The notes under the pieces are model-generated. The model saw nothing but the letters and a program-made list of their open reading frames with translations, had not been told where the DNA came from and did no database searches. This document shows positions 69 through 42,675 of a DNA stretch of 44,400 bases, one piece after another. Origin of the DNA: a virus; the IMG/VR virus record IMGVR_UViG_3300036760_000022, positions 1 through 44,400 of that record; one strand, 5' to 3'. Numbering within the stretch: the first letter of the stretch is position 1; each line of letters opens with the position of its first letter. The translations under genes were made by a program, and so were the position numbers.

Positions 69-404
69 TTATACCTCAGTGTGTGTGCCGATGGTATTAA
101 CGAACCAAAGGTCTGTGTGGATCGGATGTTTGCAAAGAATTTCCAAGCAAACTTGATTTACTCGCGTAGGTGGGAGAGACATAATTTCAAGTTCAGCCTG
201 ACTAATTCTCGTTCCTTGCTTTATCAAAATTTCAAGTTCCGCTTGAGAAACACTACTAGGTCGTTTTGTAATAATTTCAAGAGCAGCCTGAGCAATTTGC
301 GTCCTAGTTGTTTTAGCCAAGATTTCAACAACGGCCTGGGCAATTTTTGTTTGTGTAGTTTTTGCAAGGATTTCAAGAAGTGCTTGCGAAATGTTAGTAG
401 CCAT
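69..404 (-). CDS. Short repeat protein of six ISQAxLEIL units
   Basis: 111 residues made almost wholly of six copies of a 15-17 residue unit, consensus [I/V]-[S/A/N]-Q-A-x-[L/V]-E-I-[L/I/M] followed by a short basic/Thr/Pro linker; the unique tail starts near residue 95. Units of this VSQxxxEVL style occur in many tail-region proteins of environmental phages, where they are thought to be adhesive, but I know of no proven function. The start codon overlaps the stop of the upstream gene as TAATG, so the two are translationally coupled at the end of the tail-gene run. Likely a virion surface or tail-tip protein. Confidence 0.75.
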   Translation of the reverse strand: MATNISQALLEILAKTTQTKIAQAVVEILAKTTRTQIAQAALEIITKRPSSVSQAELEILIKQGTRISQAELEIMSLPPTRVNQVCLEILCKHPIHTDLWFVNTIGTHTEV

Positions 405-16910: not shown

Positions 16911-16984
16911 GGCACTATAGCTCAGTTGGTTAGAGCACCACCTTGTCGCGGTGGAGGTCGTGGGTTCAAGTCCCACTAGTGTCG
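16911..16984 (+). tRNA. tRNA-Asp (GTC)
   Basis: Full cloverleaf: acceptor GGCACTA/TAGTGTC (one G-U), D-arm GCTC-AGTTGGTTA-GAGC, anticodon arm CCACC-TTGTCGC-GGTGG with anticodon GTC, five-base variable loop, T-arm GTGGG-TTCAAGT-CCCAC, discriminator G as expected for Asp. The 3' CCA is not encoded, so host CCA-adding enzyme is needed. It lies in the middle of a structured noncoding zone between terminase and the next plus-strand gene. Confidence 0.95.
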
Positions 16985-16989
16985 CGGTC

Positions 16990-24987: not shown

Positions 24988-25336
24988 TACTGCTACAGTT
25001 CGTAACATGAGTTTCGCTTGGGAAGAACTTGACGAATATATGAAAACGCTTGAAATTGTATTCGAGCGACTTTCGCCCGCCGAGACTCACACAAGCGACG
25101 AGTACACGACCCGTTTGAGAAACAAGCTCACATACTACGGGCTTGATCTTAAAAATCCCCATGACGTAGCAGTCTTTCTATTTACCTTGTATTCCGTGAA
25201 TGAGCAAGCAGAGCGACTTCGCTTTTTGCACTTTCACGGAAACAAAGACGTTGAGAAATTCCTTGACACGTTCGCTATGAATATGGGCCTCCTAGCCAGG
25301 GATTTACTCAAGGACATTGAAGTAAAGGAATCCTAA
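24980..25336 (+). CDS. Hypothetical helical protein before whiB
   Basis: 118 residues from the ATG overlapping the previous stop; an alternative ATG is at 25007, preceded by TACAGT at -10 distance. Mostly helical (LDEYMKTLEIVFERL; YSVNEQAERLRFLHFH). Its stop overlaps the WhiB start (TAATG), so both are co-translated. No family recognised. Confidence 0.7.
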   Translation: MRNTATVRNMSFAWEELDEYMKTLEIVFERLSPAETHTSDEYTTRLRNKLTYYGLDLKNPHDVAVFLFTLYSVNEQAERLRFLHFHGNKDVEKFLDTFAMNMGLLARDLLKDIEVKES

Positions 25337-25581
25337 TGGAAGCCTGGTTTTTCCGAGCAAAATGCAGCGGAGCAGATCGTAATATGTTTTTCCCTAAAGA
25401 GGAGGACGAGGATTACGAGGAGCAAGTTCAGGCAGCGAAGGACTTCTGCGAGGACTGTCCGGTCAAGGACTTGTGCCTAGAGTATTCGTTCAAACACCCT
25501 GCCACGAAGAAGGCCGGAATCTATGGTGGAAAGACGGTTGAGGAGCGCCAAGCTATTGACAACCAGAGGCGGAAGAAGTAA
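25336..25581 (+). CDS. whiB: WhiB-family transcription factor
   Basis: 81 residues with four conserved cysteines, C10, C38, C41, C47 (CEDCPVKDLC), which bind a 4Fe-4S cluster, and the GIYGG turn at ~61-65 (usually GVWGG) before the basic helix. Found only in actinobacteria and their phages, hence strong host evidence. Probably binds the principal sigma factor and redirects host transcription; actinophage WhiB proteins are known to repress the host whiB2. TAATG-coupled to the upstream gene. Confidence 0.93.
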   Translation: MEAWFFRAKCSGADRNMFFPKEEDEDYEEQVQAAKDFCEDCPVKDLCLEYSFKHPATKKAGIYGGKTVEERQAIDNQRRKK

Positions 25582-26442: not shown

Positions 26443-26780
26443 CCTCTTACAGCCAGATTCCGGTTCTCCCGCTGGCAGAACTAGCCTCAGTTTATGGAAT
26501 GGGCGCATTCAAATATCCAAATGATGAAGCCACCGGCTTGCCAAATTATATGCTTGGTATGCCATATTCTTGGCACATGGATGCTGTATTACGCCACTGG
26601 GAGCAATTTCGCGCCGGAGTCAACTTTGACCCACAGAGCGGCTTGCACGTTCTAGCACATAGCGCCTGGTATTCAATGACTTTGATGCAATACCAACTTC
26701 TTGGAATTGGCGAAGATGATCGCCATGTCAGAGTAAAAAACAGTTTTAGAGATTTCATTTCACCACCAAGCAAGCTATGA
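26334..26780 (+). CDS. dATP/dGTP diphosphohydrolase-like protein (DUF5664 type)
   Basis: 148 residues from GTG with GGAGGAACC upstream. The signature is: GSKIASYSQIPVLPLAELAS, VYGMGAFKYP, SWHMDAVLRHWEQFRAGVNF, SGLHVLAHSAWYSMTLMQ. This helical MazG-like family in phages hydrolyses dATP/dGTP and in some phages supports diaminopurine DNA. No purZ-like gene is present, so modified DNA is not indicated. Metal-ligand His and Asp are in the HMDAVLRH and LAHSAW segments. Confidence 0.82.
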   Translation: MAEWVKRENREIGDYLLDETTVYRTSKTGGTKGSKIASYSQIPVLPLAELASVYGMGAFKYPNDEATGLPNYMLGMPYSWHMDAVLRHWEQFRAGVNFDPQSGLHVLAHSAWYSMTLMQYQLLGIGEDDRHVRVKNSFRDFISPPSKL

Positions 26781-26791
26781 GGAGAGCACAC

Positions 26792-27487
26792 ATGAAAAGA
26801 ATACTTAGTTTTTTAGCAACAGTAAGTCTATTAAGTGGTTCGTTGTTATTGCTAACGGCAACAGCCGCGTCAGCTACTAGTGCGGAAAAGGTTTTCGTTT
26901 GTAAGTACGTTGGCACGCCAGGTGTAGACGAAACTTTACAGACCGGACAGAATCCTATTAGCGTTTCAGTTAATTCGATTGGAGTAGACCCAGTAGTTAT
27001 CGGTTCTTATTTCAATGATGCACACGGTCGCTCTTATGTTCTCGCATTTGACACCGGACAAGACGAGCCAGATGTTTCACAATGTCCTGGTTCTACAGAC
27101 CCAACAACGACAACTACGATTCAGGAGACAACTACCAGTGAGCAGACCACAACAACAACCATCGGAACTACCACAACCACTACTGACGGCGGAACAACCA
27201 CCACAATCGCCGAACAGCCAACAACTACTACAACAATCAGTGGAAGCACAACAACTAGTAGGCCAGACACTACTACTACTAGTGGAACAGAACCAACGAC
27301 TACTACGGCGCTTGCACCCAGTACGACAGTATCTAATGACAGCAGCCCTAGCAGTAACAATTACGTTGGTACTACGGCTAGTTTAGCCAGCACAGGCTCA
27401 AATAGTGGCACTAATGTTCTACTTGGCTTGGTGTTAATTGTAATAGGAGGAATCTTAATTGGAATCCGCCGCCGCTACCAAGTTTAA
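26792..27487 (+). CDS. Secreted, sortase-anchored Thr-rich surface protein
   Basis: 231 residues from ATG 26792, which has GAGGAGAG six bases upstream; the ATG at 26777 is the ribosome-site region itself. Signal peptide (MKRILSFLATVSLLSG... ending ATAASA), N-terminal domain VCKYVGTPGVDETLQTGQNP, a ~75-residue Thr-rich stalk (about 95-190), and a C-terminal LASTG motif followed by a hydrophobic span and RRR, the standard LPXTG-type sorting layout. The N-terminal domain is common in host actinobacterial surface proteins, so it is probably captured from a host. Overlaps the polymerase start by 29 bases. Confidence 0.85.
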   Translation: MKRILSFLATVSLLSGSLLLLTATAASATSAEKVFVCKYVGTPGVDETLQTGQNPISVSVNSIGVDPVVIGSYFNDAHGRSYVLAFDTGQDEPDVSQCPGSTDPTTTTTIQETTTSEQTTTTTIGTTTTTTDGGTTTTIAEQPTTTTTISGSTTTSRPDTTTTSGTEPTTTTALAPSTTVSNDSSPSSNNYVGTTASLASTGSNSGTNVLLGLVLIVIGGILIGIRRRYQV

Positions 27488-36475: not shown

Positions 36476-37342
36476 ATGAACTTTATATCCAGAGCCGATT
36501 GGGGCGCACGCGCACCCAAAGCAATAACACCAATTCAGTCTGTCCGTGGTTTTGCCTTTCACTGGGAAGGCCCACACCTAAACGTAGACGACCATGCTAA
36601 CTGCGCGGCCACGGTGCGCTCGATACAGAACTTTCACATGAACACTCGTGGATGGGATGATATTGCTTACAATGCGGTTGTCTGTCCTCATGGGTTTGTC
36701 TTTGAGGGGCGCTGGAAGGGCCGTAGAAGCGCTGCACAAGGAACAAACGATGGGAATGACCACTATTACGCAATTTGCTTCTTAGGAGGCATTGACAATC
36801 CATTTACCGCAGCCGGAAAGCAAGGATTCCTTGATGCCCGCGCTACCCTTGGTGGTGGATCAGAAGTTCACCCACATTCTTATTATCATGCTACCTCTTG
36901 CCCAGGCGATGAAATTCGTAACTGGATAGCAGCAGGCTTGCCGGTGGAGGGTTCGCCTTCGGCTCCTCCTCCCCTCCCTTCACCGGCACCTCCACACCCA
37001 GTACCGCCCGTACCACAACCACCGGCACCGCCAACAGTAAACATTTACAATTTGGCTATCGACGGAAACTTCGGGCCAGCAACGGTACGTGCGTTACAAA
37101 CTGATCTTAACCGAACGGGAGCCAATCCTAAGCTCGCCGTTGATGGCAACTATGGGCCAGCCACAAAGAAAGCATTGCAGGCTCGCCTCAATGCAACCAA
37201 CGGGCCAGTTGCTATTGACGGTAATGTTGGGCCACAAACAATTAAAGCGTTGCAGCGACACGTTGGAGCTGGAGCTGATGGTGTGTGGGGCGCTGACACT
37301 ACTCGTAAATTACAAGCTACACTGAATGCAGGTAAATTTTAA
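36476..37342 (+). CDS. Endolysin: N-acetylmuramoyl-L-alanine amidase with PG-binding repeats
   Basis: 288 residues. Amidase_2/PGRP domain to ~155: zinc ligands H29 (FAFHWEG), H138 and C142 (HATSCPG), catalytic Y65 (DIAYN). Linker of ~30 residues is Pro-rich (159-187). Four peptidoglycan-binding repeats follow: LAIDGNFGPATVRALQ, LAVDGNYGPATKKALQ, VAIDGNVGPQTIKALQ and a degenerate ADGVWGADTTRKLQ. No signal peptide, so release needs a holin. Cuts the amide of peptidoglycan stem. Confidence 0.95.
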   Translation: MNFISRADWGARAPKAITPIQSVRGFAFHWEGPHLNVDDHANCAATVRSIQNFHMNTRGWDDIAYNAVVCPHGFVFEGRWKGRRSAAQGTNDGNDHYYAICFLGGIDNPFTAAGKQGFLDARATLGGGSEVHPHSYYHATSCPGDEIRNWIAAGLPVEGSPSAPPPLPSPAPPHPVPPVPQPPAPPTVNIYNLAIDGNFGPATVRALQTDLNRTGANPKLAVDGNYGPATKKALQARLNATNGPVAIDGNVGPQTIKALQRHVGAGADGVWGADTTRKLQATLNAGKF

Positions 37343-38953: not shown

Positions 38954-39278
38954 ATTTCAGCGATGGGAAACCGTATTTGTGACGTGGGTAGATAGTGGAT
39001 CACATGATAGTTGGATGAGTGAAGATGAAATTCCTATGGAAATTCCGCTTTGCCACACCAGCGGGTTTTATTATAAACAAACAGATGAAATTATTGCCAT
39101 TGCCGGAAGTAGGGATACAGCCTCTGATAATGTGTGTAATGTAATGGTAATACCATTGGTAGCGATTAAATCAATAAAGAAGGTAGAAGATGAGCAAAGT
39201 AAAGCAGTTTCTAAAAAGTCAAGTGGCAAGGCTAAAGGCGTATCTAGCAAGCGCACAGTTTCGCCAACAAAGAAATAG
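38943..39278 (+). CDS. Hypothetical protein with Lys/Ser-rich tail
   Basis: 111 residues with GGGAGGTG ribosome site. Compact beta-type N-terminal part (FQRWETVFVTWVDSGSHDSW, ~4-23; residues ~55-85 beta) and a Lys/Ser-rich C-terminus (KKSSGKAKGVSSKRT). Its last 89 bases overlap the holin candidate, so the tail is under double coding. Function unknown. Confidence 0.72.
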   Translation: MKSEFQRWETVFVTWVDSGSHDSWMSEDEIPMEIPLCHTSGFYYKQTDEIIAIAGSRDTASDNVCNVMVIPLVAIKSIKKVEDEQSKAVSKKSSGKAKGVSSKRTVSPTKK

Positions 39279-39453
39279 GGCAGTCAGATTATTTGGCGTC
39301 GCTTTATTCCTTTCGGTAAGCGGAATGTTTCAGTCACACACATTCTCAGTGAAAGCCCTACTTGCAGCCGCAATAGCCGCCGCAGAGGTCACATGGCGCG
39401 CTTTCGTTCCTGCCGCAGCTCCTAAATCAAAAGAGGAGTCAGCAGGTGACTAA
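39190..39453 (+). CDS. Holin candidate
   Basis: 87 residues. Basic N-terminus (KVKQFLKSQVARLKAY), then two hydrophobic segments, LFGVALFLSVSGMF (~34-47) and VKALLAAAIAAAEVTWRAFV (~54-73), with a short acidic end. Small basic, one-to-two-span protein in the lysis region; could make the membrane hole for the endolysin at 36476. AAGG ribosome site seven bases before the ATG. Ends eight bases into the Pup start. Confidence 0.7.
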   Translation: MSKVKQFLKSQVARLKAYLASAQFRQQRNRAVRLFGVALFLSVSGMFQSHTFSVKALLAAAIAAAEVTWRAFVPAAAPKSKEESAGD

Positions 39454-39646
39454 GCGCATACAGAAAGAAAAGACAAGCTCCGAACGAGAGCAAGAGCCAG
39501 TTGAGCCTATGCCCCAATCCAAAGAGGATGCTGAGGCGGCCAAGAAGAAAAAGGACGTGGAGGATTTACTCGATGAGATTGATGAAGTTCTTGAGGAGAA
39601 TGCTGAGGACTTTGTAAAATCTTACATTCAGAAAGGAGGCCAGTAA
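39446..39646 (+). CDS. pup: Prokaryotic ubiquitin-like protein (Pup)
   Basis: 66 residues from GTG (GAGGAG upstream, overlapping the holin stop). Known Pup: 60-64 residues, disordered N-terminus, helical ligase- and Mpa-binding core, and C-terminal GGQ or GGE. Here DLLDEIDEVLEENAEDF (40-56), VKSYIQKGGQ (57-66) match the mycobacterial Pup C-terminus nearly residue for residue, with K63 and the terminal Q66 that needs Dop deamidation to E. Residues 10-36 are acidic/Lys-rich and disordered. No ligase, Dop or proteasome gene is in the window, so host PafA/Dop/Mpa would be used. Terminal gene of the lysis unit. Confidence 0.95.
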   Translation: MTKRIQKEKTSSEREQEPVEPMPQSKEDAEAAKKKKDVEDLLDEIDEVLEENAEDFVKSYIQKGGQ

Positions 39647-39685: not shown

Positions 39686-39820
39686 TTACTTCTTTTTCTT
39701 ACGACTTTTCTTAGCTATACGATCAGGTAATTTATTTATAGTCATTGCAGCCCACTTACGCGCCCACGGTTGGTGTGTAGCAAATGCCCACTTCTCTTGT
39801 GCTTTACTTTGAAACGGCAT
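39686..39820 (-). CDS. Small basic virion-module protein (PFQSKAQEKW)
   Basis: 44 residues: PFQSKAQEKWAFATHQPWAR, KWAAMTINKLPDR and a KKSRKKKK end. The F-x-S-K-A-Q-x-x-W/F-x-F-A pattern marks a small family found near phage virion genes. Start overlaps the 951-residue protein's stop (TAATG). Converges on pup with a 39-base gap and no clear terminator. Likely packaged or head-associated. Confidence 0.75.
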   Translation of the reverse strand: MPFQSKAQEKWAFATHQPWARKWAAMTINKLPDRIAKKSRKKKK

Positions 39821-42675
39821 TACTTAGACCACCCTCCGCTAGACTTCTTCTTTTTCTTTTTGCCTTTAGCGATGTCCTGATGTTTCTTGACGTTTGCTTG
39901 CTGTTTGGGGGTAAACTTTGTAATCCCAATACCTGTAATATCCTTGAGCGCGTTTGTTTGAACAGTTCCCTTAGGTGAGAATGCAGAGGCAGCACGACCA
40001 GCACCAGGAGTTATAGCTTTAGCAAATGCACCAGCACCGCTCTTTGCTTTTCCACCAGTGAAAACATCTACTCCCGTAGCTTGACCTCCAGCGTACTTAG
40101 CCAGTTCAGGGATAGGGCCACCAGCAATGTTGATTAAGTTGCGATAAGCCTGAGCTTTTGAACCAGCTTGTAGTGCCTTAGGAACAATATATTTTCCACC
40201 AGGCAGAAGTTGTGCAGCACTAGCAACCGGCTTAACAACTTGCTCATCGAAAGCAGCTAACGGATTATCAGCATTTGTGATTCCAATACTTCCATTACCA
40301 ATTCCAAAAGCTTTAGCCAGGCCCGCAGGCAGCTCGTGGCCGTTTTGCAAATACTCAGGAGTTTTGTTTTGGTCAGGGTTAAGTAACACACCTTCTTTTG
40401 CATGCTCAGGAATAGTAAACTTGGCAGGGTTCTTAATTAAGTTTTCTACAATAAGCGGAGTGTTCTTGCGCATAAAAGTATAGAACGGAATTACTTTCTT
40501 AATCTTGCTACGCTCAAACGGAGTCAAATCACCATAATCAAATAGATATTTCTTAACAGAGAGCGCAGCTTCTTCTGGAGAACCTGTCTTATCAAGCTTG
40601 TCAATAAAGTGGGCAAGACGAGCATTGTTCTCAACAATAAGGTTTCCTTGAGCACCTGCACGAATGGCTTTAGAATTCACTCCGAATTGATTGGCTACTG
40701 ATTTAGCCTTACCTTTCTTGTCCGTTTCTTTAAGTGTTTCACCAGCGCGCAAATCTTCGCGTGTAAATGAACTACCAAAAATCTCATGTTTGCGCGCCTC
40801 GCGGAAAAGCGTAGCTTGTCGAGCATTCATAGACTGATTAACAGCTTCTTCAAAACCTTTTTTAGCTACAAGATCATTACCAGCTTTTGTATGTTCCAGC
40901 TTGAAAAGAATCTTTTGGATACCGCCAGCTTCGGTGTAAACCTTAGGGTTTACAACACCAGCTAAGTAATTAAGGAATACGTTTGATCGTGCGTTACGGG
41001 CTGTAAATGCTCCCGAAACAGGAAGAACAGTTGCAGCAGATTTCCACCAACGGTTCCATACATTAAGCGCATTCTCAAAAGCCTTAACATCGGCATCATT
41101 TGTGATGATCGTCTTTACACGGTCAAGCTCAGGTGCAATGTCAGGGTGAACTTTCAAAACACCTAGTGGGCCAAAGTCGCGTGTTACAAAATTGGAAGGA
41201 GCATTTTGGCTAGCGTTCATAATCAAACGGTTGCCGTTCGTATCTTTCAGATCAGCAACGTCCGTAATAAAACTCTTTTGTGCGACAGCCTCGGCGGCTT
41301 GTTGTCCGCGTTCAACCAAAGGATTAACAACACCCTCATCAAAAAGATGCTCTCCATCTTTAAGGAGTCCTTGGGATCGCAGTTGTGGCTCAATGATATT
41401 ATTAACTTCACGAGCGCTCAGATTTTCAAAAGCCTTGTTACGCTCCGTAAGAGAGCCACCCTGCATTAAATCTTTCTTAGCCTGACTGGCAGCCTTTGTG
41501 AAAGCGTTCTTAGCCTCAGGGTTATTGAAAACTCGATTACCGGCATCGGTTAGAGTTCGGTGCAGGTAAGTTTTGCCTGGGAGCGCATTTGTTAAAAGGT
41601 GTTCGTGGACTAGCGTTGCAGTTGTACGATCACGGACGCGCTTTGCTGTATCGACTAAAGGCTTTATCTCTTGTAGACGAGTCTGCTCAGCAGCAGTAAA
41701 TGTAGGCTTAACCTCAGAGATTGCACGCGCTGCTAGAGCTGAATCTTCCGGTGTAGCTTTTACAGCTTTACGAGCAGCATTCAATTCAACGGCGTCACGT
41801 TGAGTTAGGGTTTCAGCAATGGAACGAGACTTTACACTAGCTTCACCAACAGCCTGAGCAGTTTCTTTTCCTAAATCTTGTTTAATGCGAGCACGCGGAC
41901 TAATAAGTCGTTGTGCTCGTTTGGCTCCCTCAGTACCAGCAATCTTGCGGGCTACAGGAGCGATCTTTGAAGTTTCGGCAAGTTGACCTATCTTCTGGCC
42001 GGACACTACGTTTTTCGTTAATGAAGTACCAGGAACGTGTAAGTTAATTCCACCTTTTGCAAACTGGTCAAATGTACTGAGTTCTTTCTCAGCAATCTTG
42101 CTAGCTTTAAGCGCATCCATTTTCGTACCAGGACTAGCCAAAAGCTTGTCAGTGATACGTTGTTTAAGCTCATCACGGCTTACGTGTTGGTACAAACCTT
42201 TAGCACCTTGCTCAGCAACGTCACCTTTCAAAGTTGTTAGTGCGCTTTTTGCAGCCTCTCGTTCAGCGAAACTAGCGACAGGAGCAGCAGCTTTCTCAGC
42301 TAAAAGCTCCCCACCTTCCTTTAGGGCGGCTTCTCCAGCAGTTTTCGTACCAAGAGTAAGGTAAGTTGTAGGGTCAAATGCGACACCCACACCAAAACTT
42401 GTAGCCGCGTGAGCTATAGGATTCTTTGGAAGTTCAAAACCTAAACCTTGTTTAGTGAAATCTTCAACGCTTGTGTGAGTTTTACCTGTTATACCGTTAA
42501 AGGCTCCAGGGATAAAAGAAAGAGGATTACCGCTTTTACGAATAGCAACAGAACCGCTACGAACGGCATTACCTGGCTTATCAAGAATATCAAGAACACC
42601 ACCAAGAGCACGCAAAGCATTATTCTTAAACCCGCCTGGCTCTTTAGGCTTGTCAGGTGAAGAATTCCAACCCAT
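39820..42675 (-). CDS. Large internal virion protein (951 residues)
   Basis: Good GGAGG ribosome site. Helical and repetitive through the middle, Lys/Glu/Ala-rich; C-terminal third has LFDYGDLTPFERSKIKKVIP, FYTFMRKNTPL, PEHAKEGVLLNP. This 'LFDYG-x-LT-x-x-E ... IPFYTF' block resembles a domain of large polyvalent phage proteins (LPD38-like), which are ejected into the host with DNA. No lytic transglycosylase motif was seen. The family is assigned by motif, not search. Confidence 0.82.
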   Translation of the reverse strand: MGWNSSPDKPKEPGGFKNNALRALGGVLDILDKPGNAVRSGSVAIRKSGNPLSFIPGAFNGITGKTHTSVEDFTKQGLGFELPKNPIAHAATSFGVGVAFDPTTYLTLGTKTAGEAALKEGGELLAEKAAAPVASFAEREAAKSALTTLKGDVAEQGAKGLYQHVSRDELKQRITDKLLASPGTKMDALKASKIAEKELSTFDQFAKGGINLHVPGTSLTKNVVSGQKIGQLAETSKIAPVARKIAGTEGAKRAQRLISPRARIKQDLGKETAQAVGEASVKSRSIAETLTQRDAVELNAARKAVKATPEDSALAARAISEVKPTFTAAEQTRLQEIKPLVDTAKRVRDRTTATLVHEHLLTNALPGKTYLHRTLTDAGNRVFNNPEAKNAFTKAASQAKKDLMQGGSLTERNKAFENLSAREVNNIIEPQLRSQGLLKDGEHLFDEGVVNPLVERGQQAAEAVAQKSFITDVADLKDTNGNRLIMNASQNAPSNFVTRDFGPLGVLKVHPDIAPELDRVKTIITNDADVKAFENALNVWNRWWKSAATVLPVSGAFTARNARSNVFLNYLAGVVNPKVYTEAGGIQKILFKLEHTKAGNDLVAKKGFEEAVNQSMNARQATLFREARKHEIFGSSFTREDLRAGETLKETDKKGKAKSVANQFGVNSKAIRAGAQGNLIVENNARLAHFIDKLDKTGSPEEAALSVKKYLFDYGDLTPFERSKIKKVIPFYTFMRKNTPLIVENLIKNPAKFTIPEHAKEGVLLNPDQNKTPEYLQNGHELPAGLAKAFGIGNGSIGITNADNPLAAFDEQVVKPVASAAQLLPGGKYIVPKALQAGSKAQAYRNLINIAGGPIPELAKYAGGQATGVDVFTGGKAKSGAGAFAKAITPGAGRAASAFSPKGTVQTNALKDITGIGITKFTPKQQANVKKHQDIAKGKKKKKKSSGGWSK

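Follow-up and report, generated by a model that had tools for sequence, protein, structure and literature searches.

Gene content of the window and position of pup

The window, by which we mean the whole stretch of DNA analysed here, is a complete IMG/VR virus entry, 44,400 bases long and classed as linear. It encodes a TerL terminase, a portal protein, a major head protein, a DNA polymerase, a helicase, a primase and an endolysin, and with terminase, portal, capsid and lysis genes residing on the same contig as pup it meets the criteria for a phage genome. The pup gene is the final member of a rightward series (Table 1), in which the genes ahead of it encode the endolysin, a metallophosphoesterase, an HNH-type endonuclease and small proteins that are either membrane proteins or of unknown kind. 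An earlier note, made from the DNA letters alone, had placed it in a phage, last in a lysis/holin unit. Gene order and hallmark genes uphold both the phage location and the late position in the series; the term 'holin', however, remains an inference, the neighboring membrane protein having matched no family in profile searches. We also considered whether pup and the metallophosphoesterase next door form a linked unit, and rejected this, as the metallophosphoesterase gene is widespread and the records that carry it lack pup.

Table 1. Features of the pup locus and related genes in the window
Feature	Position	Strand	Basis
Phage pup gene, 66 aa, GTG start, KGGQ end	39446..39646	+	PF05639, PDB matches, translation
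Ribosome-binding site AGAGGAG, 8 bases before GTG	39431..39437	+	Sequence
Conserved C-terminal region EDLLDEIDEVLEENAEDFVKSYIQKGGQ; binds PafA/Dop/Mpa in known Pups (PMC8223512)	39560..39643	+	Comparison of last 30 residues, alignment
Lys-/Glu-rich N-terminal tail, presumably disordered	39446..39535	+	Residue count; total length 66 vs 60-72 in cellular Pups
Endolysin, upstream in same gene series as pup	36476..37342	+	phrog_1493, E 3.5e-39
Small membrane protein, holin-like by inference; end (39453) overlaps pup start by 8 bases	39190..39453	+	ORF
Convergent 951-aa gene beyond pup	39820..42675	-	30% identity over 470 aa to L023:8958-12209
WhiB-family regulator, actinobacterial host marker	25336..25581	+	PF02467, 61 bits

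The presence of a WhiB-family gene argues for an actinobacterial host. A search for the host using the portal protein identified no relative in 395 Acidimicrobiia or in 166 genomes of a second order, and in the absence of a positive control this result shows little. Relatives of the WhiB protein (36-40%) were also observed in two other Pup-carrying phages, L002 and L004. Elsewhere in the window we observed a single tRNA-Asp (gtc) at 16911-16985 (+), where the leftward structural genes give way to the rightward series, and an ORF of repeated units (ILAKTTQTKIAQAVVEILAKTT...) at 69-404 (-), close to where the structural region ends. The Thr-rich product of 26777-27487 (+), with its signal-peptide-like start and C-terminal LASTG-membrane segment-RRR, resembles a sortase-anchored surface protein, which is unusual in a phage.

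The product is a Pup without its pathway enzymes

The 66-residue product reads MTKRIQKEKTSSEREQEPVEPMPQSKEDAEAAKKKKDVEDLLDEIDEVLEENAEDFVKSYIQKGGQ. It matched the Pfam Pup family PF05639 over residues 6-66 with 76.1 bits (E 4.2e-21), compared to a curated cut-off of 27 bits. The solved structures that it matched were Pup chains only (best E 1.9e-11, residues 28-66, PDB sequences), and it aligns with chains 3m91, 3m9d and 7px9; a PHROGs search returned no family match. Its last residue is a Gln following Gly-Gly, and 36 residues lie ahead of the last 30, which leaves room for the tail of about 30 residues that the Mpa pore engages. The earlier note had called this ORF a 66-residue Pup ending in KGGQ; translation confirmed its coordinates, strand, length and terminus. 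A profile search without a Pup match had been named as one result that would refute the call, and instead the match was clear. The suggested alignment with cellular Pups agreed as well, each of the last 30 residues being seen at the same position among 80 cellular Pups. Judged by sequence, this is a true Pup.

We next considered the enzymes of the pathway. Neither the Pup ligase/Dop family PF03136 nor the proteasome family PF00227 had a match in the window, and phmmer searches with Mpa, PafA, Dop and PrcA identified no relative there. In contrast, the same phmmer queries applied to 80 cellular loci, namely the 80 best-matching cellular pup loci, recovered relatives of Mpa in 58, PafA in 80, Dop in 80 and PrcA in 76, and the flanks of the pup gene held a Dop/PafA relative in 80/80 and a PrcA/B relative in 76/80. 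The window thus contains an orphan Pup rather than a complete Pup-proteasome system, with pafA, dop, mpa and prcBA all absent, as had been noted at the outset from the letters alone. The protein and cellular actinobacterial Pup belong to one family and agree in length, in the C-terminal helix region and in ending with GGQ; in contrast to its cellular counterparts, it is encoded in a phage genome that lacks dop, pafA, mpa and prcBA, and its gene adjoins lysis genes.

Stand-alone pup genes recur among phages

Two records, L019 (IMG/VR 3300037071_000446) and L023 (IMG/VR 3300037070_001255), share gene order with the window and carry pup at the same site ahead of the convergent gene, the counterpart of which also lies beyond pup in L023. 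Identities to the window proteins were 43% for DNA polymerase, 43% for helicase, 41% for portal, 38% for capsid, 36% for terminase, 30% for the convergent gene and 28% for a further gene of the structural region. Their Pups end in GGE rather than GGQ, and their GC content is 0.57-0.58 compared to 0.44 in the window. The presence of pup at one site in phages whose proteins are only 28-43% identical argues that it has been kept for a long time. Scans by DNA polymerase and portal for additional relatives yielded L023/L191 as the only near one, and among records found via the polymerase and phosphoesterase genes pup was present in 0/32. Since these wider relatives of single genes lack it, pup is accessory.

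Scans of IMG/VR identified 24 further records that encode Pup, in about 15 groups defined by near-identity, some of them visibly related; rescanning IMG/VR with an enlarged Pup profile added no records. PF03136 and PF00227 were found in 0/24. Nearly all groups possess phage hallmark genes: portal or terminase in L002-L004, L006-L014, L018, L021, L022 and L025. L023 encodes terminase, portal and head protein, while an endolysin is present in L005 and L024, and a DNA polymerase in L015 and L019. The L020 Pup is near-identical to that of L021, and L016 and L017 were assigned to phage by gene order only. Many of the phage pup genes adjoin terminase, portal or lysis genes. L006 is a very large phage record: its contig measures 295,848 bases and encodes terminase relatives, and its pup is again an orphan.

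A cultured example was also found. Streptomyces phage Dagobah, an isolated phage of S. coelicolor with a complete genome of 47.3 kb, encodes a 78-aa Pup (HUN42_00036, MT711977.1) that bears the GenBank note 'ubiquitin-like protein Pup'. An initial tblastn search of phages with the window Pup had returned no match, the low-complexity filter being the most probable reason, and Dagobah emerged when other Pups were used as queries. As in the window, its Pup is an orphan (phmmer searches of Dagobah for relatives of Dop, PafA, Mpa and PrcA found none), and the gene directly follows the endolysin. Of the last 31 residues 16 are common to both proteins; the Dagobah Pup, however, ends in GGE, and would thus need no deamidation. 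An SsgA gene lies near pup. The Dagobah paper discusses SsgA and does not contain the words 'Pup', 'ubiquitin' or 'proteasome' (PMC7650747). The earlier note had been unsure whether a phage Pup had been described: one has been annotated, once, in GenBank, while our literature searches, limited to open-access papers, found no published account.

With one true phage among 50,697 records, pup is rare; together with its absence from the wider relatives, this implies that it is dispensable for many actinophages. Matches in Gordonia, Pseudomonas and P2 (E about 1-9) were discounted as chance similarity. An apparent second phage match, the 'Bacteriophage sp.' entry MT835496.1, was dropped: this scaffold from human faeces carries a cellular Mpa-Dop-Pup-PafA cluster (L200, MT835496.1:35633-51716), and since ATPase, Dop, Pup and PafA are all present it looks like a misfiled actinobacterial fragment.

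Sequence competence, selection and origin of phage Pups

PafA joins the C-terminal Glu of Pup to lysines, and Pups ending in Gln must be deamidated by Dop beforehand (PMC8223512). Pup alone is disordered, Mpa binds its helical region (PMC8223512), and the title of Striebel et al. 2010, as cited in PMC8223512, has Mpa engaging its N-terminus. The C-terminal residue is Gln in 10 and Glu in 8 of the 18 distinct phage Pup sequences, and the preceding Gly-Gly is kept in 16/18; the cellular sample ends in GGQ (58) or GGE (22). The 2 Pups that lack Gly-Gly, L022:6675-6854 (AQGQ) and L024:2-151 (QSGQ), are candidates for altered function. Complete phage Pups span 57-78 aa, compared to 60-72 in cells, and retain the N-terminal tail. 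Their best-kept part is the C-terminal region that is bound by PafA, Dop and Mpa in known systems.

We compared codons as well. The close pairs L002/L004 and L007/L013 gave dN/dS values of 0.06 and 0.10, respectively, albeit with few changes underlying both. Between the window and L019 Pups, 21 of the last 31 residues are identical and only 2 codons are, indicating that the protein was conserved while synonymous sites became saturated. So far as codon comparisons can tell, they show purifying selection on phage pup. Retention of the Gln/Glu end and the N-terminal tail, together with this selection, favours a ligatable, putatively degradation-competent tag over a dead-end decoy. The earlier note had allowed for a dominant-negative variant or a plain host-gene copy. 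The former fits poorly, since the ligation residue is present in 18/18 phage Pups and the degradation tail is kept; the window Pup retains both and so does not meet the criteria for a dominant negative. A plain recent copy fits no better, given the shared site in a relative of 28-43% identity, the synonymous saturation, and a closest cellular Pup that is only ~61% identical.

That figure is a full-length identity, the highest reached by any of the 80 best-matching cellular Pups; the best full-length matches ranged from 55 to 61%, and among these 80 the closest by identity were mostly from Acidimicrobiia. A tree of 96 rows scatters the viral Pups, with 8 label changes, at least 4 of which are forced by well-supported branches. 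This suggests that phages acquired pup on several separate occasions. With only 65 columns and weak support, the tree was unable to place the window Pup or to resolve details.

Weighing explanations for a phage-encoded Pup

Building on the observed identity, phage context, enzyme absence, recurrence and purifying selection, we propose, with a probability of roughly 0.55, that this pup is a selected actinobacteriophage gene whose product acts as a stand-alone substrate for host pupylation, sustaining, raising or redirecting it late in infection. The main rival is inhibition by competition, in which excess phage Pup occupies PafA, Dop and Mpa, so that phage proteins are spared or a defence response is blocked. 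Conservation is strongest in precisely the region that binds these 3 proteins, and the Gly-Gly motif is lost in L022 and L024. According to one proposal, mycobacteriophages escape pupylation by having lysine-poor proteins (PMC10665810); the low-GC window phage is not lysine-poor (5.7% Lys, with a lysine desert in 4/29 ORFs) and could therefore gain from blocking the pathway, although lysine counts follow GC content and hence are no measure of pupylation avoidance. A pure binding decoy, however, would require neither the terminal Gln/Glu that 18/18 phage Pups keep nor the N-terminal tail of the complete ones. Competition by an excess of conjugation-competent Pup cannot be separated from our proposal by sequence, and we regard inhibition as a tentative alternative, held at clearly lower confidence.

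Two further explanations appear improbable. Accidental acquisition of a gene with no role in infection would accord with the several separate acquisitions suggested by the tree and with the 0/32 records noted above; against it stand purifying selection with saturated synonymous sites, maintenance at one locus in both the window and a diverged phage, the roughly 15 groups in which pup recurs, and the fact that it is always pup alone that is found, without adjacent dop or prcB. Equally doubtful is a signal without proteolysis, in which phage Pup would mark or stabilise chosen proteins, such as virion or lysis proteins, without their degradation. Corynebacterium glutamicum is known to pupylate proteins although it has no proteasome (PMC10665810), and the frequent location of phage pup next to terminase, portal or lysis genes is compatible with this idea; direct evidence is lacking, however, and the length of the Mpa-engaged N-terminal tail has been kept. 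That the record is a chimera or host fragment rather than phage has a precedent in the misfiled MT835496.1, yet this reading is already contradicted by the endolysin upstream, the downstream convergent gene held in common with phage L023, the lack of Dop, PafA and 20S in the window, and the presence of pup beside the endolysin in Dagobah, an isolated phage with a complete genome.

A proposed role in infection

Under the proposal of a stand-alone substrate for host pupylation, phage Pup would be produced late, at the time when the lysis and assembly genes are expressed, a timing that we infer. Use of the host enzymes is likewise inferred: given its Gln end, the window Pup would be deamidated by host Dop, after which host PafA would attach it to lysines of proteins, and the resulting tags would be recognised by Mpa/ARC and the 20S proteasome of the host. 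In which direction the pathway is driven is also inference: phage Pup may maintain or increase pupylation as the host makes less Pup of its own. As to targets and purpose, we can only suppose removal of host proteins (defence, competing enzymes) and/or recycling of amino acids for virion production; such recycling through the Pup pathway has been suggested for starving mycobacteria (PMC8223512).

Host regulatory genes have been taken up by actinobacteriophages before, as the WhiB and SsgA homologues attest, although these are regulators of transcription or division and Pup is a protein tag. A virus that supplies a host protein modifier without its enzymes also has a parallel in baculoviruses, which encode ubiquitin; neither the sequence nor the structure of ubiquitin is related to that of Pup, however, and the baculovirus host is eukaryotic. 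What is new here is the stand-alone phage pup in many unrelated phages, of which the only prior trace we found is one database note. Since unrelated phages also carry Pup without the enzymes that attach or read it, these findings suggest that phages feed tags into the protein-disposal system of the host. Whether actinobacterial phages have on repeated occasions taken up Pup as an effector that acts on its own and seizes the proteasome of the infected host is, in our estimation, an evenly balanced question. Dagobah and S. coelicolor provide a ready test system, the pathway having already been studied in that host according to work cited in PMC8223512.

In the open-access literature we found no paper on a role for a phage-made tag in the contest between phage and host. 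Use of phage Pup by the host enzymes, if it occurs, would bear on the proposal that mycobacteriophages avoid pupylation via lysine-poor proteins (PMC10665810). If the broader view is correct, bacterial protein tagging would offer phages a general route to counter-defence or takeover, and some lineages would use a Glu-ended form that bypasses control by Dop deamidation. If host enzymes do use phage Pup, then the bacterial proteasome would join the phage-host contest through a tag made by the phage.
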